Assembly (NCBI GenBank): GCA_030272585.1
Contig: BSYQ01000008.1
Coordinates: forward strand, 1,240,001-1,304,000
From: Bryopsis sp. KO-2023
Taxonomy: Eukaryota; Chlorophyta; Ulvophyceae; Bryopsidales; Bryopsidaceae
DNA length: 64,000 bases
Reading direction: 5' to 3'
This document shows positions 9,027 to 32,809 of this stretch, one piece after another (within the stretch, counting starts at the first letter, position 1; each line of letters opens with the position of its first letter). The notes under the pieces are model-generated. The model was not told the origin of the DNA. It made no database searches and saw only the letters and a program-made list of their open reading frames with translations. The position numbers were made by a program, and so were the translations under genes.

Positions 9027-12000
9027 CCGCCAGGCAGGAAACTGCTTCGTCTGAGCCTGGCCGACGCAAACGTCGTAAGCGAAATAGAGTTCGTAGGCGG
9101 CGTAGGAAGCTAAGATCAAAAGTAGGTGCCTCGAAAAAGGTTTGTACTCACAGCGGAAAACCTGGGGCGCGGACTAGTACACCGCGTGAAGAGAGAACAG
9201 AGACACTCTCCACATCTACCCAATCGGCACATGACAACTGCGATTGGAAAAATGAACAGAAGGAAAGCACACCGGATGAGATGGACGCGCCTCATGCGTC
9301 ATCTGCATCTCTTCCCTCTGTTAGTGAATCTGTGGGCTCATTGGAGTCGCAGAGTAGTCTACAGGAGTCCCTGCCTGCAGACGTAGACGATAGTGGGTCA
9401 GAAACAACCCAGCGGTCTACCACAGAGCGAGTTAATGTGTCAGAAGTTCGATCAACTTCGTCAACCAAGGGTGACACATGCCCTCTGTTAAAAATTCAAG
9501 AAGTGCCTGTGAGAGGGTACGAAGTAAAAGCACGGATCAAGACCACGGACCTTTATGCATTCATTGATTGTGGAAGTACCGCAAACTATATCAATGATAA
9601 GGTAGCGCGTGATCTCGGGTTGTCGATTACACCAAGCTCAAAGAGAGCAATGTTGGCAAACGGAGATATTAAAGAACTGGCTGGCAGCTGTAACAACCTC
9701 CGAGTAAAGATAGGAGGGCTGAAGTGCAAAATGAAAGCGGATCTGTTCCCAGACCTTGGTTATGACCTAATATTGGGCATGCCTTGGTTGCAGAAAGAAA
9801 ACCCCCGCATAGACTTTCAGCAAAATGAGATTTCAGTTTGCAAAAACAGTCAAGTGTTTCATCTCCCGTTGCGTCATCCAACCCAAGAGAGTATTGAACC
9901 TGAACGAAAAGTACAGTCGATACTGCAAGAAGTGCCAGTGACTGAGTGTTCAGCTAAGAGAATGATGCGTCATCTCAAAACAGAGACAGCATTCATGGTT
10001 GTAGTGCAAGAATCTGAAGAGAAAGCTTTAGGCCAACATGAATTGCCTGACGCAATAGAGCGAACACAGCCATTCAACACTGAGGATGAGATTGGCAAAC
10101 TTATTCGTTCAGACACCCCTGCCGAAATTAAAAAGGTGGTAGAAACACACCGTGGTGTGTTCCCTCGTGATTTACCCCCAGGGATCCCTCCGAAGAGAAA
10201 AGGTCATGAGTTTAAGATAGACCTGGAGGATCCAACACCTATCCATCGTCCAATATACAAGCTTTCACCAGCAGAGCTGGATGAAGTGAAAGCACAAGTG
10301 GACTACCTTCTGGAACAGAAGAAAATCAAACCATCCGAGTCCCCTTGGGGCGCGCCAATCCTGTTTGTACCGAAAAAGGATGGAGGCTTAAGGATGTGTG
10401 TGGATTACAGGTGGATCAATAAGGTGACGGTAAAAAACCGATATCCTTTACCCCTGCCAGAAGAATTGATGGATAGAGTGGTCAAAGCCAAAGTGTTCTC
10501 AAAGTTAGATCTGCGATCAGGCTATTGGCAATTTCCAGTAAGGCCATCTGATACAGATAAAACAGCGTTCCGCACGAGATACGGTCACTTTGAGTTTTTG
10601 GTAGCGCCTTTTGGGCTAACCAATTGCCCAGCGCAATTCCAAACTCTAGTGCAAGACCTACTCGCAGAGTTTTTAGATGATTTTGTTGTTGTCTTTATCG
10701 ATGACATACTCATCTTCTCTGAAAACATGGAACAGCATGCCGAACACTTAGAGAAAGTCCTGTCGCGACTAGCAGAATATCAGCTTTTTGCTAAGGCAAG
10801 TAAAAGTGAGCTGGCTGTCGCAACAGTAGACTATCTTGGCTACCGCATTAGCGGAAGTGGGTTAGAACCACAGGAACAAAAAGTGAAGGCAGTGAAGGAG
10901 TGGAAGGAACTACAGAGTGTTAGCGATGTACGTAGTTTCCTTGGAATGGTTTCATACTACAGGAAATTCATTCCCCAGTTTGCACATGTTGCTGGACCAC
11001 TCCATGACTTAGTGAAAAAAGACCATCCCTGGAGATGGGGACAGGTTGAGCGTGGCGCATTCAATGAACTGAAAAAGCGTTTAAGTCAAGCTCCCGTCCT
11101 TATTTTTCCAGATGCGTCACTGCCTTACACTGTGATCACTGATGCGTCGAATGAGGCCATCGGTGCCGTGTTAACACAGGATCACGGAGAGGGGCTACAG
11201 CCAATAGCTTACCTCTCACGTAGATTCAAGCCTGCCGAGCTTAACTATGCACCATACGACAAAGAGTTGTGTGCAATATGTTATGCGATGGTGCAGTGGA
11301 GACATTATCTAGAAGGTTGTGCGGGTGGAGTAACAGTGTTCACTGACCACCAACCTCTGACGCATATTCTGTCGCAGAGGAACCTTTCTAGAACCCAAGC
11401 AAGATGGCTTGAGGCGGGGTACCTGACTTCGATCAACCCCAAGATCTCCTATATCAAAGGCAAGGCTAATGTGTTAGCAGATGCTCTCTCCCGCAGTGTT
11501 CCTAAGCCCGTGGAAACTGCGATGAACATTTCCACTTGGCAAGTGCATCAAGCAAGCCAAGACGAGTGGAAACAAGCCCTCCAAGCTGATAACTCCTTGG
11601 TGAAGATATTGCGGAAGCTTGAGAGTGGCGAGGAAGTTGAGGGATATTTCCTCAGAGAGGGAATACTCTGGACGGTCCCAAAGAGAGGATTAGTCGAGAA
11701 AGTGGTGGTTCCTAAAGGCCAGCGCAATAAGATTATGAAGGAGTGCCATGAGACACCTTCAGCAGGCCATACAGGACCAGCGCGAACAGGAGAAATCCTA
11801 GCGCGGCGATATTGGTGGAAGGGGTGGATGAATGAGTTGAAGGCATTTGTGCGCGAATGCCCTGTGTGCCAACAAATAAAGGCTGACACACAGAAGCCTA
11901 TGGGCTTACTTCAACCCCTGCCAATACCTGAGCGGAAGTGGGAGCAAATTACCACTGACTTGGTGACAGATCTACCAGCATCCAATGGGTTTACTGCTGT

Positions 12001-13021
12001 AGCTGTCTTTGTCGATAGACTTACCAAGTTTGTGCATTTCGCCCCATGTACTAAAGAGATTACCGCTGCAGGATACGCCCAACTTTTTATCGAACATGTT
12101 TACCGCAACCATGGCCTACCTAAAGTGATTGTGTCTGATAGAGACCCTCGCTTTACCAGCAAGTTCTGGCAGACGCTTTTTAAAGCTCTGGGTACAGAGA
12201 TTCGTATGAGTACAGCTTACCACCCTCAAACGGATGGGCAGAGTGAGGTTACCATACGTACTCTGGAAAATTTCTTAAGGCCATATGCTGAGAGGTATCC
12301 CCATAAGTGGGTTGAGTATTTACCTACAGCAGAGTTTGCAGCAAACAATGCAGTGAATGCGAGTACAGGGTTCGCACCTGCATACTTGATGTATGGGTAC
12401 CATCCAGAAACACCAAACATTGGTGGGACGGCAACGCAATTTCAAGTGGAAGCAGTTAAGACTATGGTAGCACGGATGGCACAGGACTTAGATACCGCAA
12501 AAGCATATTACTCGAGAGCACAACACAGAATGTGTGTGAGTGCAAACAAGAAGAGGAAAGATATTGCTTTTGAGAAAGGGGATAAAGTCCTGATAAAAAG
12601 CCGTTTTATTCCGTTGGCTGCTTTGAACAAAGTGAGTCCAAAACTGCGCCGTCGATTTGTGGGTCCCTTTGAAATTGTGGAGCAAATATCAAAGGTGGCT
12701 TACAGAGTTCAACTTCCGGAAACATGGCTCATTCACCCAGTGTTTCATGTTTCTAAGTTCAAGCGTTATCACGCCTCGAGTGATAACAGCAGGCAAATAC
12801 AACCTCCAGAAGGAGAGTTGATTGGTAGCGAAGTAGAGTATGAGGTCGAAAATATCCTAAGGGCTAGAGGTAAACGCAATCGCGAATACCTAGTGCTGTG
12901 GAAAGGATACGATCTACTTGACGCTACTTGGGAACCTGAAGCTAATCTGGTTAACGCACCAGATATACTTCGCGCATTTAAAGAGAAAGAAAGAAAAGAG
13001 TTGCAGAAAGGAAGAGAATAG
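9014..13021 (+). CDS. pol: B1 pol polyprotein with chromodomain
   Basis: The -1 frame is open from the frameshift site to 13021 (about 1335 aa); the first ATG, at 9281, gives 1246 aa. Counting from that Met: retropepsin AFIDCGSTANYI (about 93), reverse transcriptase with [16 protein letters not shown] and catalytic FIDDILIFS (about 472), RNase H ITDASNEAIGAVL (about 617), integrase zinc finger HxxxxAGH...CPVCQQ (about 825-865), catalytic DDE residues in TTDLVTDLP, VSDRDPRF and HPQTDGQSE (about 892, 951, 988), and a C-terminal chromodomain YEVENILRARGKRNREYLVL...WKGYD (about 1187-1235). All catalytic motifs look intact. The chromodomain probably directs integration to marked heterochromatin (family knowledge). 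Confidence 0.95.
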   Translation, partial: NVKLTARQETASSEPGRRKRRKRNRVRRRRRKLRSKVGASKKVCTHSGKPGARTSTPREERTETLSTSTQSAHDNCDWKNEQKESTPDEMDAPHASSASLPSVSESVGSLESQSSLQESLPADVDDSGSETTQRSTTERVNVSEVRSTSSTKGDTCPLLKIQEVPVRGYEVKARIKTTDLYAFIDCGSTANYINDKVARDLGLSITPSSKRAMLANGDIKELAGSCNNLRVKIGGLKCKMKADLFPDLGYDLILGMPWLQKENPRIDFQQNEISVCKNSQVFHLPLRHPTQESIEPERKVQSILQEVPVTECSAKRMMRHLKTETAFMVVVQESEEKALGQHELPDAIERTQPFNTEDEIGKLIRSDTPAEIKKVVETHRGVFPRDLPPGIPPKRKGHEFKIDLEDPTPIHRPIYKLSPAELDEVKAQVDYLLEQKKIKPSESPWGAPILFVPKKDGGLRMCVDYRWINKVTVKNRYPLPLPEELMDRVVKAKVFSKLDLRSGYWQFPVRPSDTDKTAFRTRYGHFEFLVAPFGLTNCPAQFQTLVQDLLAEFLDDFVVVFIDDILIFSENMEQHAEHLEKVLSRLAEYQLFAKASKSELAVATVDYLGYRISGSGLEPQEQKVKAVKEWKELQSVSDVRSFLGMVSYYRKFIPQFAHVAGPLHDLVKKDHPWRWGQVERGAFNELKKRLSQAPVLIFPDASLPYTVITDASNEAIGAVLTQDHGEGLQPIAYLSRRFKPAELNYAPYDKELCAICYAMVQWRHYLEGCAGGVTVFTDHQPLTHILSQRNLSRTQARWLEAGYLTSINPKISYIKGKANVLADALSRSVPKPVETAMNISTWQVHQASQDEWKQALQADNSLVKILRKLESGEEVEGYFLREGILWTVPKRGLVEKVVVPKGQRNKIMKECHETPSAGHTGPARTGEILARRYWWKGWMNELKAFVRECPVCQQIKADTQKPMGLLQPLPIPERKWEQITTDLVTDLPASNGFTAVAVFVDRLTKFVHFAPCTKEITAAGYAQLFIEHVYRNHGLPKVIVSDRDPRFTSKFWQTLFKALGTEIRMSTAYHPQTDGQSEVTIRTLENFLRPYAERYPHKWVEYLPTAEFAANNAVNASTGFAPAYLMYGYHPETPNIGGTATQFQVEAVKTMVARMAQDLDTAKAYYSRAQHRMCVSANKKRKDIAFEKGDKVLIKSRFIPLAALNKVSPKLRRRFVGPFEIVEQISKVAYRVQLPETWLIHPVFHVSKFKRYHASSDNSRQIQPPEGELIGSEVEYEVENILRARGKRNREYLVLWKGYDLLDATWEPEANLVNAPDILRAFKEKERKELQKGRE

Positions 13022-13286
13022 GGAAACAGAGTGTTTGATGGCTAAGGTGGAACTCCTTATAGCAAGGGGGCGCGAAAAAGGATACCTTAGAAAAACTCTG
13101 TCGACTTCCAAACCAACTCTTTAACTTTAATGCGTTAGGTGCCTAAGTTATTTGGCTGGCGCAGTAAGTGTAGCTTCAGTAGTACTTTAGAAACCGGGCA
13201 AACGATGTCACATTCGAGATAGTGTGGTTGTTCCGAGAAAACCCCTATCAAGTGACGTGTTGAGGTGGTCTTGACGAGACTCCAAC

Positions 13287-13357
13287 TGATACACGATACG
13301 GGACGTTGGTGGACCGGCCCGCCCCCTTTGCGGGTTGTGCCGCTTTATCCCGTATCA
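13287..13357 (+). mobile_element. 71-bp mini-insertion with TG...CA ends and 5-bp target duplication
   Basis: B1 and B2 align across this spot except for 71 extra bases in B1, starting TGATACACGATACGGGACG and ending TATCCCGTATCA. The insertion is flanked by CCAAC on both sides (13282-13286 and 13358-13362), present once in B2. The ends are an inverted repeat (TGATAC/GTATCA) with a further GATACGGGA/TCCCGTATC pairing. A 5-bp duplication and TG...CA ends match Ty3-type integration, so it may be a tiny solo LTR or a MITE-like passenger. No coding capacity. Confidence 0.8.
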
Positions 13358-13426
13358 CCAACCGAGCAAAACGTTGGTGTCTCACCCCAATAACCCAACG
13401 AGGAAAGTGTACGAGTCACCCAGCCT

Positions 13427-13432
13427 TATAAG
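13427..13432 (+). promoter_or_regulatory. TATA-like box upstream of B1 third ORF
   Basis: TATAAG lies 121 nt before the ATG of the third ORF. Family C has TATAAA 118 nt before its equivalent ATG, which suggests an internal promoter. Confidence 0.45.
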
Positions 13433-13547
13433 CGCAGCCCTCGAACCATTTTGCCCTAGTGTTTGTGTAAACGGAGCGAGCTCCTGAGTGAAAAAAAAGT
13501 CTAAAGACGCACAAACCGTTGTTCTTTCTTTCTTTCCGACAAACATA

Positions 13548-15362
13548 ATGGCTGCCGATACACCCGCCGCAATTATTGCGAGGTTGGAAGCGGAGGTAGC
13601 ACAAAAAGAAGAGGAGCTGCAGCACTTTGTTACGACCGCAGAGGAGGTGCTGCAGAACAATGAGGCCTTAACCCGGCAGCTCGCAGAGTTGAGTGACCGG
13701 ACGAAAGCAGCTGAGGCTGCGAAGGAGGCAGCGGAGAAAGCCAAGGATAAGGCGGAGGCGGAAAAGAAAGAAGCGGAGGACAAGACTAAGGTCTTGGAGG
13801 AAAAATTGGAAGCCATGAAGCTGAAGAAGCAGCGGTTCCAATCTCACATGATGGCTAACCATCGTGAGAATGACCTCCGTAAACAAGCTCTCGGGGGAAT
13901 AGTGGATCGATTTACCGCGGTAGAGGAAACGCTGCAGCGAGCTGTAGCAACCGCGTGGAGTGCAGCAGCCAACAACCTTAAGAAGGAATTGGCAGAACAA
14001 GAGCTGCAGATCGATTTGCTGGGAGAGTCCCTCAGAGACGGCTCTGAAAAACTTCAAGTGCAGAGCGAAACAACGGACAAGATGCTGCGTTTGAACCCGG
14101 CGGTACCAGCCCCACGGGTACGCGAAGAACTGGATCGCCAAGTCCAAGTTCTGTTGTCAAACGCAACACTTGATCTGGAACCGTCCAAGGACGATGATGC
14201 GGGAGGCTCAAGCAAGGGCAAGGGGAAAGGGAAAAACAAACGCCCAAGCTCGCCGTGTAGGGATGCAGACCCACACGGGAAGAGAAGGCGAGAGGACGGT
14301 GACGATGAAGGTGGTGAGCCACCGAGGGATCGTATGCCTGGAGATGCAGCAAGAGCCAACTTGTTACTCAAGTTAAAGGCTGCCGCATTAAAGACTCCAG
14401 CACCCTCACAACCAGCACCAACAGTTCAGACTCCCGGAGATGAGGCTACCGCAATAGCACCGGGGGAGGACTTATTCGACATGAGAGAGGAGGAGCTTTT
14501 GGACTTGGATTTTAACGAAGAAATTGACTTCGGCAGTCCACCTCCTAGGCTCGAAGGTCCTAGTTCTGAACTGGAGGACGGGGAAATAAGGAATGATGAA
14601 GGGCCAAGCCAGGTGACAGAGGTTCAGCGTGCGGTCCATCCACCGTTGGAGTTAGCTCCAACAGAAGCAGCACTTCGGGCTTTCCGAGAAAAGGTTAAGC
14701 TCAGGAGATTAAGGGCGGCTGCTCAGGACAAAGTGGATGCTGCACCCGGTGAAGTGAACCTGTCACGGGAGGATATCGAGGAGGCTTGCAACCCCATCAC
14801 TGCGTCAGAGAAATGGCCGAAGGTTCAATATACTAACCCCAGGGACCGAGCCTTGCAAAATTACCGCGGCAACCGGCACTTTCACGAGTTGCCCATGTGC
14901 ATTTGGTGCGGGAGAAGCCCAATGCAGGCAAGTGCTCAGCGGCTGACGCAGAAGAAGTATTCCGTCCTTCCTTGTGGGTATCACCTCGTGTGTGATGCTC
15001 ATTGGTTGGCATACTCGATGCTGGGGCGCATCGTCACAGCGGTCCAAAAAGTCGCGGAAGTGGACAACAAGTCCATCGCCACCGTCTCCCCATTCTCTCT
15101 ACCTGCCCATATGTTAAAGCTGACACGCTCGACGTTCGAAGAAATCCCTTCGTTCCCGGCTGAGCACGAGAAGTTGCCACACTGCAACATGTGTGTGAAG
15201 CGGCAGCTCAAGGTGTCCGGCATCACAAGGGATCTGCCATTCCTTAAGTCCAAGAGGGTGGCTGCCGCATTTGATCCCTGTGTCCGGTATCGTGCAGTGC
15301 AGCAAGCGCATGCGCAGGAGCAGCGTGCTATCCAGCAAGCGCAAGCGCAGGAACAGTGTTAG
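13548..15362 (+). CDS. B1 third ORF (604 aa): coiled coil plus Cys/His-rich domain
   Basis: This sense ORF follows pol in the env position but has no signal peptide or membrane segment, so it is not an envelope gene. I chose the ATG at 13548 (MAADTPAAIIARLEAEVAQ). Residues 1-190 form long heptad-like helices rich in Ala, Glu and Lys. A low-complexity basic/acidic middle has a nuclear-localisation-like cluster (GKGKGKNKRP, GKRRRE). The C-terminal domain contains CIWC (about 450), CGYHLVCDAHW (about 479-489) and CNMC (about 545), a likely zinc-binding fold also present in family C. B2 is inserted at the last codon, so the frame now ends ...EQC in B2's LTR instead of the native Arg and stop; the loss is one residue. 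Function unknown. Confidence 0.8.
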   Translation: MAADTPAAIIARLEAEVAQKEEELQHFVTTAEEVLQNNEALTRQLAELSDRTKAAEAAKEAAEKAKDKAEAEKKEAEDKTKVLEEKLEAMKLKKQRFQSHMMANHRENDLRKQALGGIVDRFTAVEETLQRAVATAWSAAANNLKKELAEQELQIDLLGESLRDGSEKLQVQSETTDKMLRLNPAVPAPRVREELDRQVQVLLSNATLDLEPSKDDDAGGSSKGKGKGKNKRPSSPCRDADPHGKRRREDGDDEGGEPPRDRMPGDAARANLLLKLKAAALKTPAPSQPAPTVQTPGDEATAIAPGEDLFDMREEELLDLDFNEEIDFGSPPPRLEGPSSELEDGEIRNDEGPSQVTEVQRAVHPPLELAPTEAALRAFREKVKLRRLRAAAQDKVDAAPGEVNLSREDIEEACNPITASEKWPKVQYTNPRDRALQNYRGNRHFHELPMCIWCGRSPMQASAQRLTQKKYSVLPCGYHLVCDAHWLAYSMLGRIVTAVQKVAEVDNKSIATVSPFSLPAHMLKLTRSTFEEIPSFPAEHEKLPHCNMCVKRQLKVSGITRDLPFLKSKRVAAAFDPCVRYRAVQQAHAQEQRAIQQAQAQEQC

Positions 15363-15777
15363 TGAAGCTTGTGGGTGACGCAATAGTGGTCGGCTGTGTT
15401 GGTTGGATTCGTGATAACTTGCTGGCTAACGCAAGTATACTTGTGGGGTTTGTTGGTTTAGACAACTCTCTAGCTAGCGCGGTTGTGAACGCTACTAGAG
15501 CACTTGGTTGGATAAGTGATTGCGTCAGGCAAACACTTAGACACACACACACACAAACACACACACAAGCGGGAACACACCAATCCCACGAATCCCGAGT
15601 TCTTACAACTAGAATGGAATGTCAAAACAACGAGTGGGCCTCTTAAGTACCCCTAAGTGTAGTACGCTGACGCATGCCCCAAACTCTGGGTCTAATCTGT
15701 CTTACTCGTGAACCCACATGCGTCAGCCACCCTCGGCTCTATCCCAAACTACCTCGTATAGCGCTAAAAGACTAACA
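15357..15777 (-). repeat. B2 3' LTR (421 bp)
   Basis: On the minus strand it starts TGTTAGTC (15777) and ends CACTAACA (15357), a perfect TGTTAG/CTAACA terminal pair. It abuts the interrupted last codon of the B1 third ORF. Confidence 0.92.
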
Positions 15778-15785
15778 TAACGCTG

Positions 15786-17600
15786 TTAACGCTGTTCCTG
15801 CGCTTGCGCTTGCTGGATAGCACGCTGCTCCTGCGCATGCGCTTGCTGCACTGCACGATACCGGATACAGGGATCAAATGCGGCAGCCACCCTCTTGGAC
15901 TTTAGGAATGGCAGATCCCTTGTGATGCCGGACACCTTGAGCTGCCGCTTCACACACATGTTGCAGTGTGGCAACTTCTCGTGCTCAGCCGGGAACGGAG
16001 GGATTTCTTCGAACGTCGAGCGTGTCAGCTTCAACATATGGGCAGGTAGAGAGAATGGGGAGACGGTGGCGATGGACTTGTTGTCCACTTCCGCGACTTT
16101 TTGGACCGCCGTGACGATGCGCCCCAGCATCGAGTATGCCAACCAATGAGCATCACACACGAGGTGATACCCACAAGGAAGGACGGAATACTTCTTCTGC
16201 GTCAGCCGCTGAGCACTTGCCTGCATTGGGCTTCTCCCGCACCAAATGCACATGGGCAACTCGTGAAAGTGCCGGTTGCCGCGGTAATTTTGCAAGGCTC
16301 GGTCCCTGGGGTTAGTATATTGGACCTTCGGCCATTTCTCTGACGCAGTGATGGGGTTGCAAGCCTCCTCGATATCCTCCCGTGACAGGTTCACTTCGCT
16401 GGGTGCAGCATCCACTTTGTCCTGAGCAGCCGCCTTTAGTCTTCTAAGCTTAACCTTTTCTCGGAAAGCCCGAAGTGCTGCTTCTGTTGGAGCTAACTCC
16501 AACGGTGGATGGACCGCACGCTGAACCTCTGTCACCTGGCTTGGCCCTTCATCATTCCTTATTTCCCCGTCCTCCAGTTCAGAACTAGGACCTTCGAGCC
16601 TAGGAGGTGGACTGCCGAAGTCAATTTCTTCGTTAAAATCCAAGTCCAAAAGCTCCTCCTCTCTCATGTCGAATAAGTCCTCCCCCGGTGCTATTGCGGT
16701 AGCCTCATCTCCGGGAGTCTGAACTGTTGGTGCTGGTTGTGAGGGTGCTGGAGTCTTTAATGCGGCAGCCTTTAACTTGAGTAACAAGTTGGCTCTTGCT
16801 GCATCTCCAGGCATACGATCCCTCGGTGGCTCACCACCTTCATCGTCACCGTCCTCTCGCCTTCTCTTCCCGTGTGGGTCTGCATCCCTACACGGCGAGC
16901 TTGGGCGTTTGTTTTTCCCTTTCCCCTTGCCCTTGCTTGAGCCTCCCGCATCATCGTCCTTGGACGGTTCCAGATCAAGTGTTGCGTTTGACAACAGAAC
17001 TTGGACTTGACGATCCAGTTCTTCGCGTACCCGTGGTGCTGGTACCGGCGGGTTCAAACGCAGCATCTTGTCCGTTGTTTCGCTCTGCACTTGAAGTTTT
17101 TCAGAGCCGTCTCTGAGGGACTCTCCCAGCAAATCGATCTGCAGCTCTTGTTCTGCCAATTCCTTCTTAAGGTTGTTGGCTGCTGCACTCCACGCGGTTG
17201 CTACAGCTCGCTGCAGCGTTTCCTCTACCGCGGTAAATCGATCCACCATTCCCCCGAGAGCTTGCTTGCGGAGGTCATTCTCACGATGGTTAGCCATCAT
17301 GTGAGATTGGAACCTTTGCTTTTTCAGCTTCATGGCTTCCAATTTTTCTTCCAAGACCTTGGTCTTGTCCTCCGCTTCTTTCTTTTCCGCCTCCGCCTTT
17401 TCCTTGGCTTTCTCCGCTGCCTCCTTCGCAGCCTCAGCTGCTTTCGTCCGGTCACTCAACTCTGCGAGCTGCCGGGTTAAGGCCTCATTGTTCTGCAGCA
17501 CCTCCTCTGCGGTCGTAACAAAGTGCTGCAGCTCCTCTTCTTTTTGTGCTACCTCCGCTTCCAACCTCGCAATAATTGCGGCGGGTGTATCGGCAGCCAT
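15786..17600 (-). CDS. B2 third ORF (604 aa), intact
   Basis: This is the uninterrupted twin of the B1 third ORF, differing at a handful of residues. ATG at 17600, stop at 15786. Same layout: N-terminal coiled coil, basic middle (KGKGKNKRP), and C-terminal Cys/His domain with CIWC, CGYHLVCDAHW and CNMC. The native C-terminus is short EQ/QA repeats (HAQEQRAIQQAQAQEQR). The stop is followed by only 8 nt before the 3' LTR, an arrangement unlike B1. An intact frame in a second copy argues that the protein is under selection in the element rather than a chance ORF. Confidence 0.82.
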   Translation of the reverse strand: MAADTPAAIIARLEAEVAQKEEELQHFVTTAEEVLQNNEALTRQLAELSDRTKAAEAAKEAAEKAKEKAEAEKKEAEDKTKVLEEKLEAMKLKKQRFQSHMMANHRENDLRKQALGGMVDRFTAVEETLQRAVATAWSAAANNLKKELAEQELQIDLLGESLRDGSEKLQVQSETTDKMLRLNPPVPAPRVREELDRQVQVLLSNATLDLEPSKDDDAGGSSKGKGKGKNKRPSSPCRDADPHGKRRREDGDDEGGEPPRDRMPGDAARANLLLKLKAAALKTPAPSQPAPTVQTPGDEATAIAPGEDLFDMREEELLDLDFNEEIDFGSPPPRLEGPSSELEDGEIRNDEGPSQVTEVQRAVHPPLELAPTEAALRAFREKVKLRRLKAAAQDKVDAAPSEVNLSREDIEEACNPITASEKWPKVQYTNPRDRALQNYRGNRHFHELPMCIWCGRSPMQASAQRLTQKKYSVLPCGYHLVCDAHWLAYSMLGRIVTAVQKVAEVDNKSIATVSPFSLPAHMLKLTRSTFEEIPPFPAEHEKLPHCNMCVKRQLKVSGITRDLPFLKSKRVAAAFDPCIRYRAVQQAHAQEQRAIQQAQAQEQR

Positions 17601-17715
17601 TATGTTTGTCGGAAAGAAAGAAAGAACAACGGTTTGTGCGTCTTTAGACTTTTTTTTCACTCAGGAGCTCGCTCCGTTTACACAAACACTAGGGCAAAAT
17701 GGTTCGAGGGCTGCG

Positions 17716-17721
17716 CTTATA
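17716..17721 (-). promoter_or_regulatory. TATA-like box upstream of B2 third ORF
   Basis: TATAAG at the same 121-nt distance from the ATG as in B1. Confidence 0.4.
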
Positions 17722-18050
17722 AGGCTGGGTGACTCGTACACTTTCCTCGTTGGGTTATTGGGGTGAGACACCAACGTTTTGCTCGGTTGGAGTCTCGTCA
17801 AGACCACCTCAACACGTCACTTGATAGGGGTTTTCTCGGAACAACCACACTATCTCGAATGTGACATCGTTTGCCCGGTTCTTAAAGTACTACTGAAGCT
17901 ACACTTACTGCGCCAGCCAAATAACTTAGGCACCTAACGCATTAAAGATAAAGAGTTGGTTTGGAAGTCGACAGAGTTTTTCTAAGGTATCCTTTTTCGC
18001 GCCCCCTTGCTATAAGGAGTTCCACCTTAGCCATCAAACACTCTGCTTCC

Positions 18051-21000
18051 CTATTCTCTTCCTTTCTGCAACTCTTTTCTTTCTTTCTCTTTAAATGCGC
18101 GAAGTATATCTGGTGCGTTAACCAGATTAGCTTCAGGTTCCCAAGTAGCGTCAAGTAGATCGTATCCTTTCCACAGCACTAGGTATTCGCGATTGCGTTT
18201 ACCTCTAGCCCTTAGGATATTTTCGACCTCATACTCTACTTCGCTACCAATCAACTCTCCTTCTGGAGGTTGTATTTGCCTGCTGTTATCACTCGAGGCG
18301 TGATAACGCTTGAACTTAGAAACATGAAACACTGGGTGAATGAGCCATGTTTCCGGAAGTTGAACTCTGTAAGCCACCTTTGATATTTTCTCCACAATTT
18401 CAAAGGGACCCACAAATCGACGGCGCAGTTTGGGACTCACTTTGTTCAAAGCAGCCAACGGAATAAAACGGCTTTTTATCAGGACTTTATCCCCTTTCTC
18501 AAAAGCAATATCTTTTCTCTTCTTGTTTGCACTCACACACATTCTGTGTTGTGCTCTAGAGTAATATGCTTTTGCGGTATCTAAGTCCTGTGCCATCCGT
18601 GCTACCATAGTCTTAACTGCTTCCACCTGAAATTGCGTTGCCGTCCCACCAATGTTTGGTGTTTCTGGATGGTACCCGTACATCAAGTATGCAGGTGCGA
18701 ACCCTGTACTCGCATTCACTGCATTGTTTGCTGCAAACTCTGCTGTAGGTAAATACTCAACCCACTTATGGGGATACCTCTCAGCATATGGCCTTAAGAA
18801 ATTTTCCAGAGTACGTATGGTAACCTCACTCTGCCCATCCGTCTGAGGGTGGTAAGCTGTACTCATACGAATCTCTGTACCCAGAGCTTTAAAAAGCGTC
18901 TGCCAGAACTTGCTGGTAAAGCGAGGGTCTCTATCAGACACAATCACTTTAGGTAGGCCATGGTTGCGGTAAACATGTTCGATAAAAAGTTGGGCGTATC
19001 CTGCAGCGGTAATCTCTTTAGTACATGGGGCGAAATGCACAAACTTGGTAAGTCTATCGACAAAGACAGCTACAGCAGTAAACCCATTGGATGCTGGTAG
19101 ATCTGTCACCAAGTCAGTGGTAATTTGCTCCCACTTCCGCTCAGGTATTGGCAGGGGTTGAAGTAAGCCCATAGGCTTCTGTGTGTCAGCCTTTATTTGT
19201 TGGCACACAGGGCATTCGCGCACAAATGCCTTCAACTCATTCATCCACCCCTTCCACCAATATCGCCGCGCTAGGATTTCTCCTGTTCGCGCTGGTCCTG
19301 TATGGCCTGCTGAAGGTGTCTCATGGCACTCCTTCATAATCTTATTGCGCTGGCCTTTAGGAACCACCACTTTCTCGACTAATCCTTTTTTTGGGACCGT
19401 CCAGAGTATTCCCTCTCTGAGGAAATATCCCTCAACTTCCTCGCCACTCTCAAGCTTCCGCAATATCTTCACCAAGGAGTTATCAGCTTGGAGGGCTTGT
19501 TTCCACTCGTCTTGGCTTGCTTGATGCACTTGCCAAGTGGAAATGTTCATCGCAGTTTCCACGGGCTTAGGAACACTGCGGGAGAGAGCATCTGCTAACA
19601 CATTAGCCTTGCCTTTGATATAGGAGATCTTGGGGTTGATCGAAGTCAGGTACCCCGCCTCAAGCCATCTTGCTTGGGTTCTAGAAAGGTTCCTCTGCGA
19701 CAGAATATGCGTCAGAGGTTGGTGGTCAGTGAACACTGTTACTCCACCCGCACAACCTTCTAGATAATGTCTCCACTGCACCATCGCATAACATATTGCA
19801 CACAACTCTTTATCGTATGGTGCATAGTTAAGCTCGGCAGGCTTGAATCTACGTGAGAGGTAAGCTATTGGCTGTAGCCCCTCTCCGTGATCCTGTGTTA
19901 ACACGGCACCGATGGCCTCATTCGACGCATCAGTGATCACAGTGTAAGGCAGTGACGCATCTGGAAAAATAAGGACGGGAGCTTGACTTAGACGCTTTTT
20001 CAGTTCATTGAATGCGCCACGCTCCACCTGTCCCCATCTCCAGGGATGGTCTTTTTTCACTAGGTCATGGAGTGGTCCAGCAACATGTGCAAACTGGGGA
20101 ATGAATTTCCTGTAGTATGAAACCATTCCAAGGAAACTACGTACATCACTAACACTCTGTAGTTCCTTCCACTCCTTCACTGCCTTCACTTTTTGTTCCT
20201 GTGGTTTTAACCCACTTCCGCTAATGCGGTAGCCAAGATAGTCTACTGTTGCGACAGCCAGCTCACTTTTACTTGCCTTAGCAAAAAGCTGATATTCTGC
20301 TAGTCGCGACAGGACTTTCTCTAAGTGTTCGGCATGCTGTTCCATGTTTTCAGAGAAGATGAGTATGTCATCGATAAAGACAACAACAAAATCATCTAAA
20401 AACTCTGCGAGTAGGTCTTGCACTAGAGTTTGGAATTGCGCTGGGCAATTGGTTAGCCCAAAAGGCGCTACCAAAAACTCAAAGTGACCGTATCTCGTGC
20501 GGAACGCTGTTTTATCTGTATCAGATGGCCTTACTGGAAATTGCCAATAGCCTGATCGCAGATCTAACTTTGAGAACACTTTGGCTTTGACCACTCTATC
20601 CATCAATTCTTCTGGCAGGGGTAAAGGATATCGGTTTTTTACCGTCACCTTATTGATCCACCTGTAATCCACACACATCCTTAAGCCTCCATCCTTTTTC
20701 GGTACAAACAGGATTGGCGCGCCCCAAGGGGACTCGGATGGTTTGATTTTCTTCTGTTCCAGAAGGTAGTCCACTTGTGCTTTCACTTCATCCAGCTCTG
20801 CTGGTGAAAGCTTGTATATTGGACGATGGATAGGTGTTGGATCCTCCAGGTCTATCTTAAACTCATGACCTTTTCTCTTCGGAGGGATCCCTGGGGGTAA
20901 ATCACGAGGGAACACACCACGGTGTGTTTCTACCACCTTTTTAATTTCGGCAGGGGTGTCTGAACGAATAAGTTTGCCAATCTCATCCTCAGTGTTGAAT

Positions 21001-22058
21001 GGCTGTGTTCGCTCTATTGCGTCAGGCAATTCATGTTGGCCTAAAGCTTTCTCTTCAGATTCTTGCACTACAACCATGAATGCTGTCTCTGTTTTGAGAT
21101 GACGCATCATTCTCTTAGCTGAACACTCAGTCACTGGCACTTCTTGCAGTATCGACTGTACTTTTCGTTCAGGTTCAATACTCTCTTGGGTTGGATGACG
21201 CAACGGGAGATGAAACACTTGACTGTTTTTGCAAACTGAAATCTCATTTTGCTGAAAGTCTATGCGGGGGTTTTCTTTCTGCAACCAAGGCATGCCCAAT
21301 ATTAGGTCATAACCAAGGTCTGGGAACAGATCCGCTTTCATTTTGCACTTCAGCCCTCCTATCTTTACTCGGAGGTTGTTACAGCTGCCAGCCAGTTCTT
21401 TAATATCTCCGTTTGCCAACATTGCTCTCTTTGAGCTTGGTGTAATCGACAACCCGAGATCACGCGCTACCTTATCATTGATATAGTTTGCGGTACTTCC
21501 ACAATCAATGAATGCATAAAGGTCCGTGGTCTTGATCCGTGCTTTTACTTCGTACCCTCTCACAGGCACTTCTTGAATTTTTAACAGAGGGCATGTGTCA
21601 CCCTTGGTTGACGAAGTTGATCGAACTTCTGACACATTAACTCCCTCTGTGGTAGACCGCTGGGTTGTTTCTGACCCACTATCGTCTACGTCTGCAGGCA
21701 GGGACTCCTGTAGACTACTCTGCGACTCCAGTGAGCCCACAGATTCACTAACAGAGGGAAGAGATGCAGATGACGCATGAGGCGCGTCCATCTCATCCGG
21801 TGTGCTTTCCTTCTGTTCATTTTTCCAATCGCAGTTGTCATGTGCCGATTGGGTAGATGTGGAGAGTGTCTCTGTTCTCTCTTCACGCGGTGTACTAGTC
21901 CGCGCCTCAGGTTTTCCGCTGTGAGTACAAACCTTTTTCGAGGCACCTACTTTTGATCTTAGCTTCCTACGCCGCCTACGAACTCTGTTTCGCTTACGAC
22001 GTTTGCGTCGGCCAGGCTCAGACGAAGCAGTTTCCTGCCTGGCGGTCAGTTTAACATT
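18051..22058 (-). CDS. pol: B2 pol polyprotein with chromodomain
   Basis: Full-length frame almost identical to B1 pol (a few substitutions such as Glu-to-Lys near the RT C-terminus). The expected start is a -1 shift at A AAA AAA or G TTA AAC just before the gag stop; the first ATG is at 21791. Retropepsin DCGSTANYI, RT FIDDILIFS, RNase H, integrase HHCC and DDE, and C-terminal chromodomain are all present in order. No stop or frameshift is seen. Because C2 splits the upstream gag, this copy can no longer make a normal Gag-Pol from its own LTR. Confidence 0.93.
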   Translation of the reverse strand, partial: NVKLTARQETASSEPGRRKRRKRNRVRRRRRKLRSKVGASKKVCTHSGKPEARTSTPREERTETLSTSTQSAHDNCDWKNEQKESTPDEMDAPHASSASLPSVSESVGSLESQSSLQESLPADVDDSGSETTQRSTTEGVNVSEVRSTSSTKGDTCPLLKIQEVPVRGYEVKARIKTTDLYAFIDCGSTANYINDKVARDLGLSITPSSKRAMLANGDIKELAGSCNNLRVKIGGLKCKMKADLFPDLGYDLILGMPWLQKENPRIDFQQNEISVCKNSQVFHLPLRHPTQESIEPERKVQSILQEVPVTECSAKRMMRHLKTETAFMVVVQESEEKALGQHELPDAIERTQPFNTEDEIGKLIRSDTPAEIKKVVETHRGVFPRDLPPGIPPKRKGHEFKIDLEDPTPIHRPIYKLSPAELDEVKAQVDYLLEQKKIKPSESPWGAPILFVPKKDGGLRMCVDYRWINKVTVKNRYPLPLPEELMDRVVKAKVFSKLDLRSGYWQFPVRPSDTDKTAFRTRYGHFEFLVAPFGLTNCPAQFQTLVQDLLAEFLDDFVVVFIDDILIFSENMEQHAEHLEKVLSRLAEYQLFAKASKSELAVATVDYLGYRISGSGLKPQEQKVKAVKEWKELQSVSDVRSFLGMVSYYRKFIPQFAHVAGPLHDLVKKDHPWRWGQVERGAFNELKKRLSQAPVLIFPDASLPYTVITDASNEAIGAVLTQDHGEGLQPIAYLSRRFKPAELNYAPYDKELCAICYAMVQWRHYLEGCAGGVTVFTDHQPLTHILSQRNLSRTQARWLEAGYLTSINPKISYIKGKANVLADALSRSVPKPVETAMNISTWQVHQASQDEWKQALQADNSLVKILRKLESGEEVEGYFLREGILWTVPKKGLVEKVVVPKGQRNKIMKECHETPSAGHTGPARTGEILARRYWWKGWMNELKAFVRECPVCQQIKADTQKPMGLLQPLPIPERKWEQITTDLVTDLPASNGFTAVAVFVDRLTKFVHFAPCTKEITAAGYAQLFIEHVYRNHGLPKVIVSDRDPRFTSKFWQTLFKALGTEIRMSTAYHPQTDGQSEVTIRTLENFLRPYAERYPHKWVEYLPTAEFAANNAVNASTGFAPAYLMYGYHPETPNIGGTATQFQVEAVKTMVARMAQDLDTAKAYYSRAQHRMCVSANKKRKDIAFEKGDKVLIKSRFIPLAALNKVSPKLRRRFVGPFEIVEKISKVAYRVQLPETWLIHPVFHVSKFKRYHASSDNSRQIQPPEGELIGSEVEYEVENILRARGKRNREYLVLWKGYDLLDATWEPEANLVNAPDILRAFKEKERKELQKGRE

Positions 22059-22609
22059 TTTTTTACATCGGGGAGGTTTTTCACCTCCTCCAATCTAGGA
22101 CATTGCCTCACAGGATGACCCTTCTTTCCACAAAGATAACAATGATATCCCCCTCCCCCCTGGGGGTTCTGTCTTCCCTGATTGGCTTGTCCTCTTCCAC
22201 GGTTACCACCACCGCGTCCACGTCCACCACCACCACGTCCTTGTTGCTGTTGCTGCTGCTGTTGCACTCCTGCGGCAGCTTGTGGTGGTGCTTGAGCTGG
22301 TGGTGTAGGGTTCTGCTGCTGCTGACCCTGATTCTGGCCTTTCTTCTTTCTTCCACCACGCCAGACTCCTTTCTTTTTCTGATTGGTTTGCCCTCCTTGG
22401 CCTTGTGTTCCAACTCCAAGGGCTTCCAATCGTTCGGCGGATATGATGGCGGCCTCGACATCTCGAGGTACCGTTGCTGCGACTAACTTCTGAACTTCAC
22501 TTTTAAGTCCATCCACGAAGAGCAAATACTGGTGATCCTCTTCGAGGTCTGGAATCCTCAAGATTAACCGCTGAAACTCTTTGACGAACTGTTTCACGGT
22601 TCCAGTCTG
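22046..22609 (-). pseudogene. gag: B2 gag, C-terminal fragment
   Basis: This continues the gag broken by C2: it resumes at ACTGGAACCGTGAAACAGTT after the GTCTG duplication (22605-22609) and runs to the TGA at 22046. It carries the end of the capsid core, the Gln/RGG tail and the CCHC knuckle CYLCGKKGHPVRQC. The RGG tract is 5 residues shorter than in B1, a typical slippage difference. The N-terminal part is at 32810-34890. Confidence 0.9.
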
Positions 22610-22783
22610 TGTTAGGTCCCTGTAGGTTTTAGTGAGTCGTTGCTGAAGTTGAGACTGGGGTCACACACTTTCACAAACCAGAGAATTAATTTTACAAGGT
22701 GTTCTCTCTGAACTTAACCCCCTAGAACCCGTACTAACCCGTACTACACACTCGTACTGCAAAATGAGTGCGACAACGTATCA
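22610..22783 (-). repeat. C2 3' LTR (174 bp)
   Basis: Begins TGATACGTTG (22783) and ends GGGACCTAACA (22610) on the minus strand. It is unusually short for a chromovirus LTR and has no obvious TATA box. Confidence 0.93.
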
Positions 22784-22805
22784 ACTACTCCCCCCCCCCC
22801 CCCCC
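22784..22805 (-). other. C2 polypurine tract
   Basis: Sixteen G residues followed by AGTAGT lie directly before the 3' LTR on the minus strand, the expected place and composition for the plus-strand primer. Confidence 0.8.
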
Positions 22806-22934
22806 AAAGGGTGTCCACACCCGTAGAAGAACCCAAAAAGAAAGAAAAATAAAAGAAAAGAAAAGAAAAGAAAACCCCCAAGGAAAAACTGTCTCTGTCC
22901 GGCTCTGACTCTCTGGCTCTGGCTCCGCTCTCGC

Positions 22935-24761
22935 TCACTCTGTCTCCGAGTCCAAGCCCTCGAGATCCCACATCGTTCGTAGGATGTATGTCAGCCGGGA
23001 TCCAAGCTCCTTGACACCGGTTTTTGAAGGGAAGGCTGCGGATTTGACCCGACACACCTGACATGGTAAGGTGAGCTGATCAGTGGTATCCGGGGATGGA
23101 AGCGATGGGAGCGGAAGAAAATCCTCCGCACGTTTCCCGAGGCGAAGATGCTCCGCGGTCATATCGAGCGGCCGGATAGTTTTATCCGCGAGCCACCGAT
23201 TGATGACCCGATCCATTACATGATGATGGGGCCAGTGTGTAGGGCAAACGTAGTGTGCCCCACAACTGGTTTTTACCCCGACACCATGTTGCGTTCCCGC
23301 GCAGTAATAGCACTTCGTTCCCGCGAGTGCTGGATCGTGCGTGCCTTTGATCTTCTTGAGCGCTGCACGCAGCTCTTTCGCGTCCTTCGCGCGTGTGCGT
23401 TTCTTCCCCCGCTTGGTGCTTTTCTCCGCGCCCTTTTTTCCCGCTTCCTTCACTTTTTCCGCATCCGCCTGAGTCGACGGCTCCCCTTTCTTGGTTTCGG
23501 CGGTTGTCTTTTTCTCCGCGTCCGCCTTCTTTTGCTTTCCCGCGTCCGCGTGTGTTTTTCCCGCGTCCGCCTTCTGTTTTTCCGCAGCCGCCTTTTTCTC
23601 CGCGGCTGCTTTCTTTTTCTCCGCATCCGCCTCCGCGAGTGCTTTGAGCATTGCTGCTTTGACGAGTGCTTATGTTTGTGTGTCCTCCGCGCTCAGCGGT
23701 GGTTTTGAACCTGTCGGTTCTTCCGCTATGACGTCTTCGTTGTCGTCATCGTCAAGGGAACTCTGGGGTGGTTTCGCCAATTGCTTTGAGATATTCTCCG
23801 CTGCCCCGTCTATCCGGCTCAACCAGTCGTTCACTTGGTCCAAATTGTGCGCCTTCGTAAGGTCCACGTTCGTGATGGTGATCTCCTTGACCTTATGCAT
23901 ATCGACCTGATCTTTTATCCGGCCGTCTCGCACCAACTGCGCCTGCGCCTTCGCGGTATCCAGCCGTACTCCCACGAGTCCGTGTGAGAAACTCGCGAGT
24001 GACTGCGGGATGTCCATGAGGTTGGCCCGAAGCCGGTTGACCTCAACTTTGGACGCGACGAGTTCTGACATCAACACCCGGGCGGTCGTGCTGCTGCAGA
24101 AGTCGTCTCCCTTTTCCGCCTTGGCGAGAGCGGCTTTTGTGGCTGCCAACTCTTTTTGGACCGTGACGAGGTTGCGGTAGCGTTTCTCCGCCTCACTGAT
24201 GAGCTGCTTATTCTCCTTGTGATACCATTCGGTATCCGCCTGAGCTTTGGTGGCTGTTTTCCGGGACAGGGCCAGATCGGTGGTCAGCTGGGTAATTTCC
24301 TTGGCTTTCGCGGAAATTTCTTGATTCCGCGCGGAAATTACTTGATCCTTTGCGGAATTTTCTTCCTCTTGCGCGGATAACTCTCTTTTGATAGTCTTGA
24401 GTTCCGCTTCCGCACCGCGGGCTTTCACTTGAGCATCACTCAACTGCTGTTGAAGAGCCCGGTATCGATTGGTCCAATCCGCCTCCAGCTTAGTTTTTTC
24501 CGCCGCCCCTTCCTCTTTTGCTTCCCGGAGTTCCGCCGCCAGCTCACAGATTTCCGCCTCCTGCTCATCTCTTTTTGTCACACCCTCCTGAAGCTTCTTG
24601 TGTAATTTTTCGTAATCCGCCGCCACATTTGCATGTGATTCCACCGCCTCAGTTCCAGATTCTAAGGCTTCCGCGAGCTCCGTTTCCAAGGCCTCTGCCT
24701 TTGCTTTCCACTCATCCCTCTGCTGACGGAGTCGCTCCAAATGCTCGGATGTTCCAGACAT
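22935..24761 (-). pseudogene. C2 third ORF (about 607 aa) broken by one in-frame stop
   Basis: Reading from ATG 24761, one frame covers 609 codons to 22935, interrupted only by a TAA at 23672-23670 (context ...EDTQT stop ALVKAA). Upstream piece 363 aa: long coiled coil with repeated ISAKxxE-type heptads. Downstream: Lys/Ala-rich repeats (ADAEKKKAAAEKK), then a Cys/His domain with CYYC (about 484), CGAHYVCPTHW (about 500) and LPCQVC (about 566). The CxxC, CGxHxVCxxHW, CxxC order matches the B-family third ORF although the rest is unlike. Length and position after pol also match. A single nonsense change in an otherwise open frame suggests recent decay of a formerly functional gene. Confidence 0.75.
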
Positions 24762-25082: not shown

Positions 25083-28000
25083 CTAAAGAGGTTGTTTCCG
25101 CCGCCTTGTCCGCCTTTCTTCCCGCTTAGAGCGGATTTCCTCTTTGGTCGGCAAGCGCGTGCGGTTTCTGAGATACTCTGCCAAGATATCGCTGGCATTG
25201 GCCAGGTGGGCTTCTGGCTCCCAGGTGGCTTCCATCAAATCATAGCCCTTCCACAGAATCAAGTACTCCCGACGGTTGGGTGTGCCTCGATCCCGCAGAA
25301 TACGCTCGACCTCATATTCAATGGCGCCATCCACCAACTCCCCTTCGGGAGGTTCCACCTCCCGCTCATCATCTTTTGACAAGCGGTTGTATGCCTTCAG
25401 CTTGGAGACATGGAAGGTAGAATGAATAGTCCAATGGGGTGGTAGTTGCAGGCGATAAGCGACTGTGGATATCGCTTTGTCCACTTTGAATGGCCCGACA
25501 AACCTCCGGCGGATTTTTGGTGGGATCTTTTGCAAGGATTGCAGCGGAATAAATGTACTCCGCACCAAAACTTCATCCCCTTCTTTGAAGATTACTTCCC
25601 GCCGCCGTTTGTTCGCTTGGACACACATCCGCTCTTGTGCGGTTGCATACTGCTGCTTTGCCTGCTGCAGTTGCTCGTCCATTCGTTTCACCATTTCGGT
25701 TGCCATTTCGGACTCTTCTTTCGCCGTTAACTTTTTCTGCACGGTAATTTGTCCCATATGTTGCCCATACAACAAGTGTGCTGGGGCATAGCCGGTTGAC
25801 ACATTGCGGGAGTTGTTGGCAGCAAATTCCGCTGTCGCCAAGAAATCAACCCAGCGGTCTGGATACCGCTCCACATAAGGCCGCAAAAAGTCTTCCAACA
25901 CCCGAATAGTAACCTCTGACTGCCCATCTGTTTGTGGGTGGTAGGCTGTGCTCATTCGGAGTTGGGTTCCCAGAAGTGAAAATAAAGACCGCCAGAAGGA
26001 ACTTGTGAATCTGGGGTCTCGATCGGAAATTATCACTTTGGGGAGGCCATAGTGTTTGTATATTTTGTCCACAAACAACTTAGCATATTCCGGGGCGGTT
26101 ATTTCCTTAGTGCAGGGTGCGAAGCGAACGTACTTGGTTAACCGATCAACAAATACCGCGATGGCGGTGAACCCACGTGACTTTGGTAAATCAGTCACGA
26201 GGTCAGTGGTGATCTGTTCCCACTTTGTTGTCGGTATTGGGAGTGGATGCAGAAGCCCTTTCTGCTTCGTCGTATCAGCTTTTGTCCGCTGACAGACAGG
26301 ACATGTCCGCACATATGCTTGGACATCCTTTCCAACTCCTTTCCACCAGTAGTATCGCTGTAGCACATCCGATGTCCGGGCGGCACCTGCGTGTCCAGCG
26401 CTCGGAACATCATGGAACTCCCCCATAACCTTTTTCCGGTATCCATTTGGAACCACTAGTACTTTGTCTGAGGTGGGAGTTGCTTGATAGTACAACCAGC
26501 CATCCTCGAACGAAAGTTTCGTGGGTTTACCCTCTTGGATTTTCGCGACTTCCGCTTGCAGTTTTTGATCTACTGCAATAGCGGTCTTCCATGCATCCGC
26601 TTCATCCACCACCCAGGCGGACAAAGCATGAATTTGATCCTGTGAATCAGGAAGGCTGCGGGATAACGCATCCGCCAGTACATTGGCTTTACCAGGCACA
26701 TAGACGATTTTTGGATCGATGGAATCAAAATACCCTGACGTATACCATCGGGATTGTGTCCGCGACATTTTAGCTTGGGTCATGAAGTGGGTTATCGGCT
26801 GATGGTCTGTCATAACCGTAACCTCCCCAGGCGCTCCTTCGAGGTAATGCCGCCATTGGCTGAGCGCATATGCTACAGCCCCCAGCTCCCGCTCATATGC
26901 GGAATATCGTGTCTCAGCTGGTTTTAATCGTCTTGAAAGGTAGGCTATTGGCTGTAGCCCCTTTCCATGGTCCTGACACAGAACTGCTCCATATGCAGTT
27001 CCTGATGCGTCCGTTATTACGGTGTACCTAAGAAGCGGATCGGGTAGGAGAAGTATGGGGGTGCGGGTGATCTTTTGCTTGAGTTTGCTGAAGGCTTCGC
27101 GCTGAATAGGCCCCCATGTCCACACATGATTCTTTTTGATCAGATCATGTAAGGGTCCTGCAATCCGCGCAAACTCTGGTATAAACTTACGATAGTAAGA
27201 TACCATGCCCAGAAAACTTCGCACATCCCCAACTGAGCTCAACTCCTTCCATTCTTGAATAGCCCGCACTTTATCACTCATTGGTTGCAGGCCTTTCCCT
27301 GACAAATGATATCCCAGATAATCGGTCTCGCTGACCCCCACTTCACACTTGCTCGCTTTCGCGTAGAGCTTGTGTTTGTGTAACCGCTCGAATACCTGTT
27401 TCAAATGATCGACATGTTCTTCCACTGAATTGGAAAACACCAGAATGTCGTCAATGAACACAACCACAAAGTGGTCCAAAAACTCCCCCAACAAATCCTG
27501 CACCATAGTTTGAAACTGGGCCGGACAGTTGGACATTCCGAAGGGACAAACGAGGAACTCGAAATGCCCGTATCGTGTGCGGAATGCAGTTTTTGGGGTA
27601 TCCTTTGGCCGGACTGGAAATTGCCAGTAGCCCGAGCGGAGGTCGATCTTGGTGTAGATCTTTGCTTTAGCGAGCCGGTCCATTAACTCTTCGGGGAGCG
27701 GAAGTGGATAGCGGTTTTTAATGGTGTAGTGGTTGATCCATCTGTAATCAACACACATCCGCAGTCCGCCGTCTTTCTTAGGGACAAAGAGTATGGGGGC
27801 TCCCCAGGGACTCTCTGACGGCCTAATCTTCCGTTGCTCGAGGAGATAATCCACTTGTGTCCGAACTTCATCCAATTCAGCCGGAGAAAGTTTGTACAGG
27901 GGACGGTGGATTGGGCTCATACTCTCATCCTCAAGGTCGATCTTAAATTCATGACCCTTGCGGACGGGAGGTATGCCAGGTGGGAGATCTTTTGGAAAAA

Positions 28001-32635: not shown

Positions 32636-32809
32636 TGTTAGGTCCCTGTAGGTTTTAGTGAGTCGTTGCTGAAGTTGAGACTGGGGTCACACACTTTCAC
32701 AAACCAGAGAATTAATTTTACAAGGTGTTCTCTCTGAACTTAACCCCCTAGAACCCGTACTAACCCGTACTACACACTCGTACTGCAAAATGAGTGCGAC
32801 AACGTATCA
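32636..32809 (-). repeat. C2 5' LTR (174 bp)
   Basis: Same sequence as 22610-22783. Begins TGATACG at 32809, ends CTAACA at 32636. Confidence 0.93.

Follow-up and report, generated by a model that had tools for sequence, protein, structure and literature searches.

I found that three nested chromoviruses in the green alga Bryopsis sp. KO-2023 carry, after pol, a third open reading frame (ORF3) whose product is very probably a selected accessory protein and not an envelope. The elements, named B1, B2, and C2, lie in a stretch of 64,000 nucleotides (contig BSYQ01000008.1 of assembly GCA_030272585.1, positions 1,240,001 to 1,304,000; hereafter the window). ORF3 of this kind occurs in at least four chromovirus families (B, C, D, and E) of the same genome. 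It is under purifying selection, and it ends in a zinc-type domain.

In B1, B2, and C2, ORF3 lies in the sense orientation between pol and the 3′ long terminal repeat (LTR), a few hundred bases after pol (Table 1). An earlier note on the window had reported these frames as 604 amino acids each in B1 and B2 and about 607 codons in C2, and had placed them in sense after pol. This arrangement is confirmed here inside LTR-bounded elements with 5-bp target duplications, while the report had passed over a single in-frame stop codon which splits the C2 frame into pieces of 363 and 238 amino acids. The zinc domain of C2 sits in the downstream piece (22935-23651). In contrast to C2, the frame is open in the 12 other C copies examined. 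The last codon and the stop codon of B1 ORF3 come from the LTR of the inserted B2. The N-terminal parts differ between the B and C families, as had been noted before. Heptad-like stretches span residues 7-183 (B), 1-330 (C), 11-283 (D), and 124-218 (E). Basic clusters are found at residue 245 in B, and in the other three families they precede the zinc domain. In B1 and in the genomic regions L002 and L004, ORF3 is followed by about 200 nucleotides ending in a G-rich tract (35468-35665 in B1), which is a possible polypurine tract; a G-rich tract followed by the 3′ LTR also lies downstream of C2 ORF3. The stop codon of B2 ORF3, on the other hand, is only 8 nucleotides from its own 3′ LTR (15777-15786).

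Is this ORF common in the Bryopsis genome? The 91.1-Mb genome was searched with the C2 domain; among the matches listed, partial ones included, identity was 81-100% in family C, 41-44% in D, and 31-34% in E. Thus, the ORF is shared by unlike families, as had been claimed, but the two families counted at that time were too few. The position of ORF3 is equal and its length similar from B to E, and in the D and E copies scanned it follows a chromodomain-bearing pol. At least 62 near-full-length E domain matches were found (150 of the 340 candidates scored). None has a stop codon within the 146 residues compared. The surrounding open frame has 540 codons or more in 48 of them and fewer in the other 14. 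In the B-domain search, likewise, none of the 150 matches listed (of 274 candidates) has a stop codon within the match, some of them lying in short open frames, and 72 of the 73 B copies listed are stop-free (73 of the 298 candidates scored). An ORF3 of at least 540 open codons with the motif is present in 14 of the 20 fetched regions of about 10 kb. Among the other six, L033 and L039 have shortened frames, L032 and L034 have no ORF3 of that length, and L038 has a 583-codon frame lacking the zinc domain.

A few of these copies have unusual arrangements. In the last of the six regions, L031 (4227-8045), a natural deletion in a D element has joined the reverse transcriptase (RT) portion of pol and ORF3 into one open frame, 1273 residues long. 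In L021 (8467-9901), the 3′ LTR of a D copy is followed within about 20 nucleotides by the LTR and 5′ region of a second D copy, and the D domain matches of this region are about 10.2 kb apart. On the plus strand of contig G000:C9, five B-domain matches lie at 272965, 283229, 293493, 303757, and 314021 with an exact spacing of 10,264 bp, as in a tandem array of B elements.

The C-terminal domains of the four families have in common the eight-ligand pattern C-x2-C / C-x2-H-x-V-C-x2-H-W / C-x2-C, with a ligand spacing of C-x2-C-x(12-21)-C-x2-H-x2-C-x2-H-x(53-60)-C-x2-C. Since entry to the ORF3 set required the first six ligands, the V, and the W, the finding that all members keep the ligands tests only the last CxxC pair and the spacing. 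When seven natural ORF3s were aligned, the invariant columns were both CxxC pairs, C-x2-H-x-V-C-x2-H-W, and a few others including R, P, L, L, F, and P. The motif order given earlier for B and C holds, except that the G of its CGxH is found in these two families only; D has CQSH, and E has CTSH or CTNH. In BLASTP, the single-pair E-values of ORF3 are 3e-41 (C-D), 5e-13 (D-E), and 6e-12 (C-E), and the C, D, and E ORF3s appear clearly homologous. The E-values with B are 2e-8 (B-E), 1e-6 (B-C), and 0.002 (B-D), which points to a remote but supported homology. The score of the B2 domain against E29 was reached by none of 5000 free shuffles, none of 5000 shuffles keeping the ligands and the W, and 6 of 5000 keeping every C, H, and W. 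The corresponding numbers against C11 are 0, 20, and 9 of 5000. A profile of C, D, and E gave B a score of 17.9 bits, above all of 3000 free shuffles (maximum 9.3).

The ORF3 frames are not only open but constrained. Between B1 and B2, ORF3 has 17 synonymous and 8 non-synonymous changes, and the ratio of non-synonymous to synonymous substitution rates (dN/dS) is 0.136, not near 1; the individual pairs listed range from 0.063 to 0.19. The mean within-family ratio of the proportions of such differences (pN/pS) is 0.110 for B, 0.138 for C, 0.139 for D, and 0.143 for E. The dN/dS of pol is 0.013-0.145. In each family, the zinc domain has the lowest summed ratio (0.049 in B, 0.080 in C, 0.075 in D, and 0.099 in E), and the parts of ORF3 outside it are also constrained (0.095-0.177). 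The set comprised 40 entries, of which 37 are distinct (9 B, 12 C, 4 D, and 12 E); the C entry L013 is short at its 5′ end. The three duplicates (L001 is the same as B2, the first ORF3 of L024 as L019, and L044 as L029) are included in the family means. L001-L020 and L042-L045 are top-scoring matches, so that their dN is biased downward; this bias is smaller for B1/B2, the D regions, and the E regions L025-L040.

Does ORF3 encode an envelope? In one copy of each of the four families, no membrane span was seen (the best 19-residue Kyte-Doolittle average is 0.71-1.01) and no hydrophobic N-terminus (the first 30 residues average -0.03 to -1.75), as judged by hydropathy and not by a dedicated predictor. 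The signal peptide and transmembrane anchor of a retroviral or errantiviral envelope are thus not seen in these copies by hydropathy. A degenerate or derived envelope would still fit the env position, the sense orientation, the similar length, and the coiled coil. However, this explanation is strongly disfavoured and highly improbable, given the same hydropathy values and a Cys/His arrangement whose CxxC pairs are typical of zinc sites. The earlier suggestion of a selected accessory protein without a membrane span is strengthened by the two additional families, the many further copies with the domain, a dN/dS of about 0.1, and the hydropathy.

The zinc domain carries a RING-like signature, C-x2-H-x-V-C-x2-H-W. 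The Pfam model zf-RING_5 (PF14634) matched both E members tested weakly, with an E-value of 0.04 over profile positions 2-29 of 43; the score on E29 is 14.3 bits, below the cut-off of 27.9. The domain resembles the RING fingers of this family in the order C-x2-C, C-x2-H-x-V-C-x2-[H], C-x2-C and in most spacings. It differs in that ligand 6 is His instead of Cys and the second loop is longer, and it remains below the curated cut-off. LIM domains have the ligands C,C,H,C / C,C,C,[CHD] and loops about 16-23 residues long, while ORF3 has the order C,C,C,H,C,H,C,C and a second loop of 53-60 residues. In RING fingers, a hydrophobic residue stands before ligand 5. Since this is also the case in ORF3, sequential (LIM-like) zinc sites are somewhat disfavoured. 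A RING-like (cross-brace) fold is a tentative assignment, which I consider possible though not quite probable.

Searches for relatives gave little. Weak Pfam matches of whole ORF3s fall mostly in coiled-coil regions, and NCBIfam matches fall in coiled-coil regions (SMC and the like). In PHROGs there were weak matches only, the best (E 0.054) being that of 21 residues of D to an HNH endonuclease model. Among solved structures searched by sequence, no E-value was below 0.7, and no relative was found in viral contigs. In public proteins, no relative was found outside Bryopsis by searches that use shared 5-residue words, so that remote relatives can escape. The only hits there were two gene models of Bryopsis sp. 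KO-2023 named hypothetical proteins, BSKO_06675 (P0001) and BSKO_12629 (P0002), which look like spliced pieces of B elements.

The CCHC zinc knuckle of gag (C-x2-C-x4-H-x4-C) was also considered and rejected; the ORF3 pattern does not fit it, and in BLASTP against the gag of B and C no match was obtained for ORF3 (the best alignment covers 12 residues at E 0.51). This bears on the idea that ORF3 is a nucleic-acid-binding particle protein, namely a second nucleocapsid-like protein or an RNA chaperone, whose helices oligomerise and whose zinc domain binds the RNA or cDNA of the element. The helical heptad regions, the CCHC motif in the gag of the same elements (Pfam zf-CCHC at E 0.1-0.2 only), and the basic clusters adjoining the zinc domain in all families but B would be in line with such a role. 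However, eight ligands with H-x-V-C-x2-H-W are unlike a knuckle, the gag comparison gave no match, and a structural protein is expected to track gag and pol in descent, which ORF3 does not. I regard a particle protein as rather unlikely. A chromatin or integration-targeting factor is a second alternative. Zinc domains of the PHD/RING type often read chromatin, and the pol of all four families has a chromodomain, with which ORF3 might work in tethering the integration complex to particular chromatin; the basic clusters would also fit this role. In contrast, the chromodomain already provides targeting, and the Pfam scans gave no match to PHD or to chromatin readers; this role seems unlikely, slightly more so than that of a particle protein.

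ORF3 does not follow the rest of the element in its divergence. C and D elements are 80-88% identical in nucleotide sequence in LTR, gag, and pol. Between C2 and the D element L021, pol is 85% identical up to 82 nucleotides before the start of ORF3, and the sequences can be aligned again from 113 nucleotides past its stop codon (147 nucleotides at 79%). Between these points, across ORF3, there is no nucleotide alignment. L021 also holds a following D copy, whose 5′ LTR and leader are 80% identical to C2. Another D region, L031, is 88% identical to C2 from the 5′ end, across gag, and into pol, and 96.6-99.5% identical to L021 where the two overlap. As proteins, the pols of C2 and L021 are 91% identical, whereas C and D ORF3s are 43% identical over the 212 C-terminal residues aligned by BLASTP. 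With pol taken from C2 and ORF3 from L011, because the C2 ORF3 is broken, the synonymous divergence (dS) between C and D is 0.64 in pol (0.33 to 0.97 in 150-codon windows), while synonymous differences are saturated in ORF3 (0.81 per site).

A similar trend was found within families. The dS of ORF3 exceeds that of pol 1.2 to 5.2 times in all seven pairs, namely B1/B2 and six E pairs. The latter are all pairs among L026, L029, L030, and L040, in which both pol and ORF3 are complete; L036 was excluded for its shorter pol frame and L033 for its broken ORF3. In 250-nucleotide windows of E29/E30 and E29/E26, divergence is 0-4.0% in pol, 0.4-0.8% in the next-to-last window of the gap, 2.4-3.2% in its last window, and 2.0-10.0% in ORF3. 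The exchange of ORF3 as a unit between lineages, like a cassette, would best explain this pattern of divergence. Alternatively, a locally raised rate of mutation or template switching might have produced the excess. It would account for the divergence being raised at shallow depth too (two of three E pairs and B1/B2), and for a rise that begins in the last 250-nucleotide window of the gap (1.2-3.2%) and is not sharp at the start codon. However, I find a local rate rather unlikely, because the synonymous sites of C and D are saturated in ORF3 against a dS of 0.64 in pol, the unaligned block has edges 82 nucleotides before and 113 nucleotides after ORF3, and the next-to-last window stays low in the E pairs.

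What might such an apparently exchangeable ORF do? The earlier note had speculated on RNA binding, silencing escape, or chromatin contact. The heptad region may mediate oligomerisation of the ORF3 protein, and the basic clusters may bring it into the nucleus. The two-zinc RING-like domain would then dock a host protein, most likely one from the silencing or chromatin machinery, and the docked protein would be removed or recruited to the advantage of the element. The strong conservation together with cassette exchange would make ORF3 a replaceable host-interaction module. As a whole, a nuclear oligomeric accessory protein which docks a host factor through a RING-like module and is swappable as a unit is the best explanation I can offer, although it falls a little short of being probable. 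Action on host silencing or chromatin, taken by itself, is conceivable, and I hold it with less confidence than the fold. A more specific version is that ORF3 is an element-encoded RING-type ubiquitin ligase or adaptor, a coiled-coil oligomer that removes a nuclear silencing or chromatin factor, and hence a counter-defence cassette traded between chromovirus families as retroviruses trade env; this is quite unlikely.

Several observations weigh against the host-docking module and its parts. Only two of the seven domain members were touched by zf-RING_5, and no curated Pfam family scored above its cut-off for the zinc domain. RING fingers are defined by C-x2-C-x(9-39)-C-x(1-3)-H-x(2-3)-[CH]-x2-C-x(4-48)-C-x2-C. 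The first spacing of ORF3 (12-21) fits, whereas its second loop of 53-60 residues and the His at ligand 6 do not; perhaps the domain acts like a RING though outside the RING class. Two AlphaFold models of window sequences have a mean pLDDT (the confidence score of the model) of 49.8 and 39.9, which is low. The basic clusters are the sole pointer to a presumed nuclear location. The 17.9 bits of B lie within the range of shuffles keeping C, H, and W (maximum 29.4), and its membership thus appears to depend largely on the C/H/W pattern. Besides the ligands, its position, its length, and a modest surplus of residue similarity speak for B. As for cassette exchange, the raised divergence starts already in the last part of the gap before ORF3, and one of three E pairs (E29/E40) has no clear rise. 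In B1/B2 alone, the C-terminal part of ORF3 has the highest ratio (0.289), from 3 + 3 changes, which are too few to weigh.

LTR retrotransposons are known to carry additional genes downstream of pol, whose function is mostly open. In the available part of PMC7264820, the additional ORFs that plant LTR retrotransposons carry in sense between pol and the 3′ LTR (aORF-3S) are described as env-like, with an unclear role. Bryopsis ORF3 falls under aORF-3S; it resembles the plant ORFs in its position after pol and ahead of the 3′ LTR, in its sense orientation, and in its retention by most members of a family. Unlike the env-like ones described in that part, it lacks a membrane span, and its C-terminal end is a zinc-type domain with eight ligands. 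The non-envelope ORF3 types of bdelloid rotifers (GDSL esterase, DEDDy exonuclease, coiled-coil, and membrane) also lie after pol and are common to unlike elements (PMC5408684, as far as available), whereas in Bryopsis the four chromovirus families have a single zinc-type domain in common, and ORF3 was not recognised as a member of any enzyme family. Retand elements have TRP28 ORFs between pol and the 3′ LTR, with a proposed regulatory role and probable DNA binding; these are likewise conserved accessory ORFs but are antisense, belong to a non-chromovirus lineage, and carry another named domain (accessible portion of PMC11963269). The Chlamyvir chromoviruses of algae are chromodomain-bearing Ty3/gypsy elements like B-E, a likeness by description only, and the terms "additional ORF" and "extra ORF" do not occur in the part of PMC6317226 at hand.

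No description of Bryopsis ORF3 was found by the searches of the open-licence literature. What is new here is the combination of features: the elements are chromoviruses, four families of them share a zinc-type domain that scores above the cut-off of no known family, and ORF3 shows signs of being exchanged as a whole. The Bryopsis ORF3s are a natural collection of homologous cassettes with which the role of a non-envelope ORF3 could be studied. If ORF3 does counter silencing, siphonous green algae would have in it a retrotransposon equivalent of viral suppressors; on this subject, no paper dealing with that lineage was found by the same searches.

The elements of the window are nested; C2 lies within the gag of B2, and B2 at the extreme end of B1 ORF3. 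They have the protease, RT, RNase H, and integrase order, the C-terminal chromodomain, the LTRs, and the target duplications of chromoviruses; the evidence from LTRs and target duplications covers B1, B2, and C2. The chromodomain scored 46.0-48.4 bits (cut-off 25.1) in the pols of B1 and C2, one D pol, and one E pol.

Table 1. Positions of the nested chromoviruses and their parts in the window (TSD, target site duplication).
Feature	Position	Strand	Remarks
B1 whole element	5809-36086	+	421-bp LTRs, TSD GCTAG
B1 5′ LTR	5809..6229	+	421 bp; TSD GCTAG at 5804-5808
B1 gag	6375..9026	+	
B1 pol	9281..13021	+	protease, RT, RNase H, integrase, chromodomain
B1 pol-to-ORF3 gap	13022..13547	+	
B1 ORF3	13548..15362	+	604 amino acids; zinc domain at about residues 441-570
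B1 3′ LTR	35666..36086	+	beyond nested B2; TSD GCTAG at 36087-36091
B2 whole element	35456 to 15357	-	421-bp LTRs, TSD AACAG
B2 5′ LTR	35036..35456	-	TSD AACAG at 15352-15356 and 35457-35461
B2 pol	18051..21791	-	17 nucleotide differences from B1 pol
B2 ORF3	15786..17600	-	604 amino acids
B2 3′ LTR	15357..15777	-	LTR-bounded element
C2 whole element	32809 to 22610	-	two identical 174-bp LTRs, TSD GTCTG
C2 5′ LTR	32636..32809	-	174 bp
C2 gag	29168..32134	-	
C2 pol	25083..29192	-	protease, RT, RNase H, integrase, chromodomain
C2 ORF3	22935..24761	-	in-frame stop at 23670-23672; 363 + 238 amino acids
C2 3′ LTR	22610..22783	-	174 bp, same sequence as 5′ LTR; TSD GTCTG

Pieces of more C-type elements flank B1 (5263-5808, 36087-38304, and 38308-42845), and B1 appears to have been inserted into one of them. 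On the minus strand, positions 3-2864 hold another Ty3-like pol, about 38-43% identical to the B-E pols, with its 3′ end outside the window. A 695-amino-acid open frame without a Pfam match at E 1 lies at 43764-45848 on the same strand. The minus-strand frame at 59447-61501 resembles, by eye, the C-terminal part of a dynein heavy chain.

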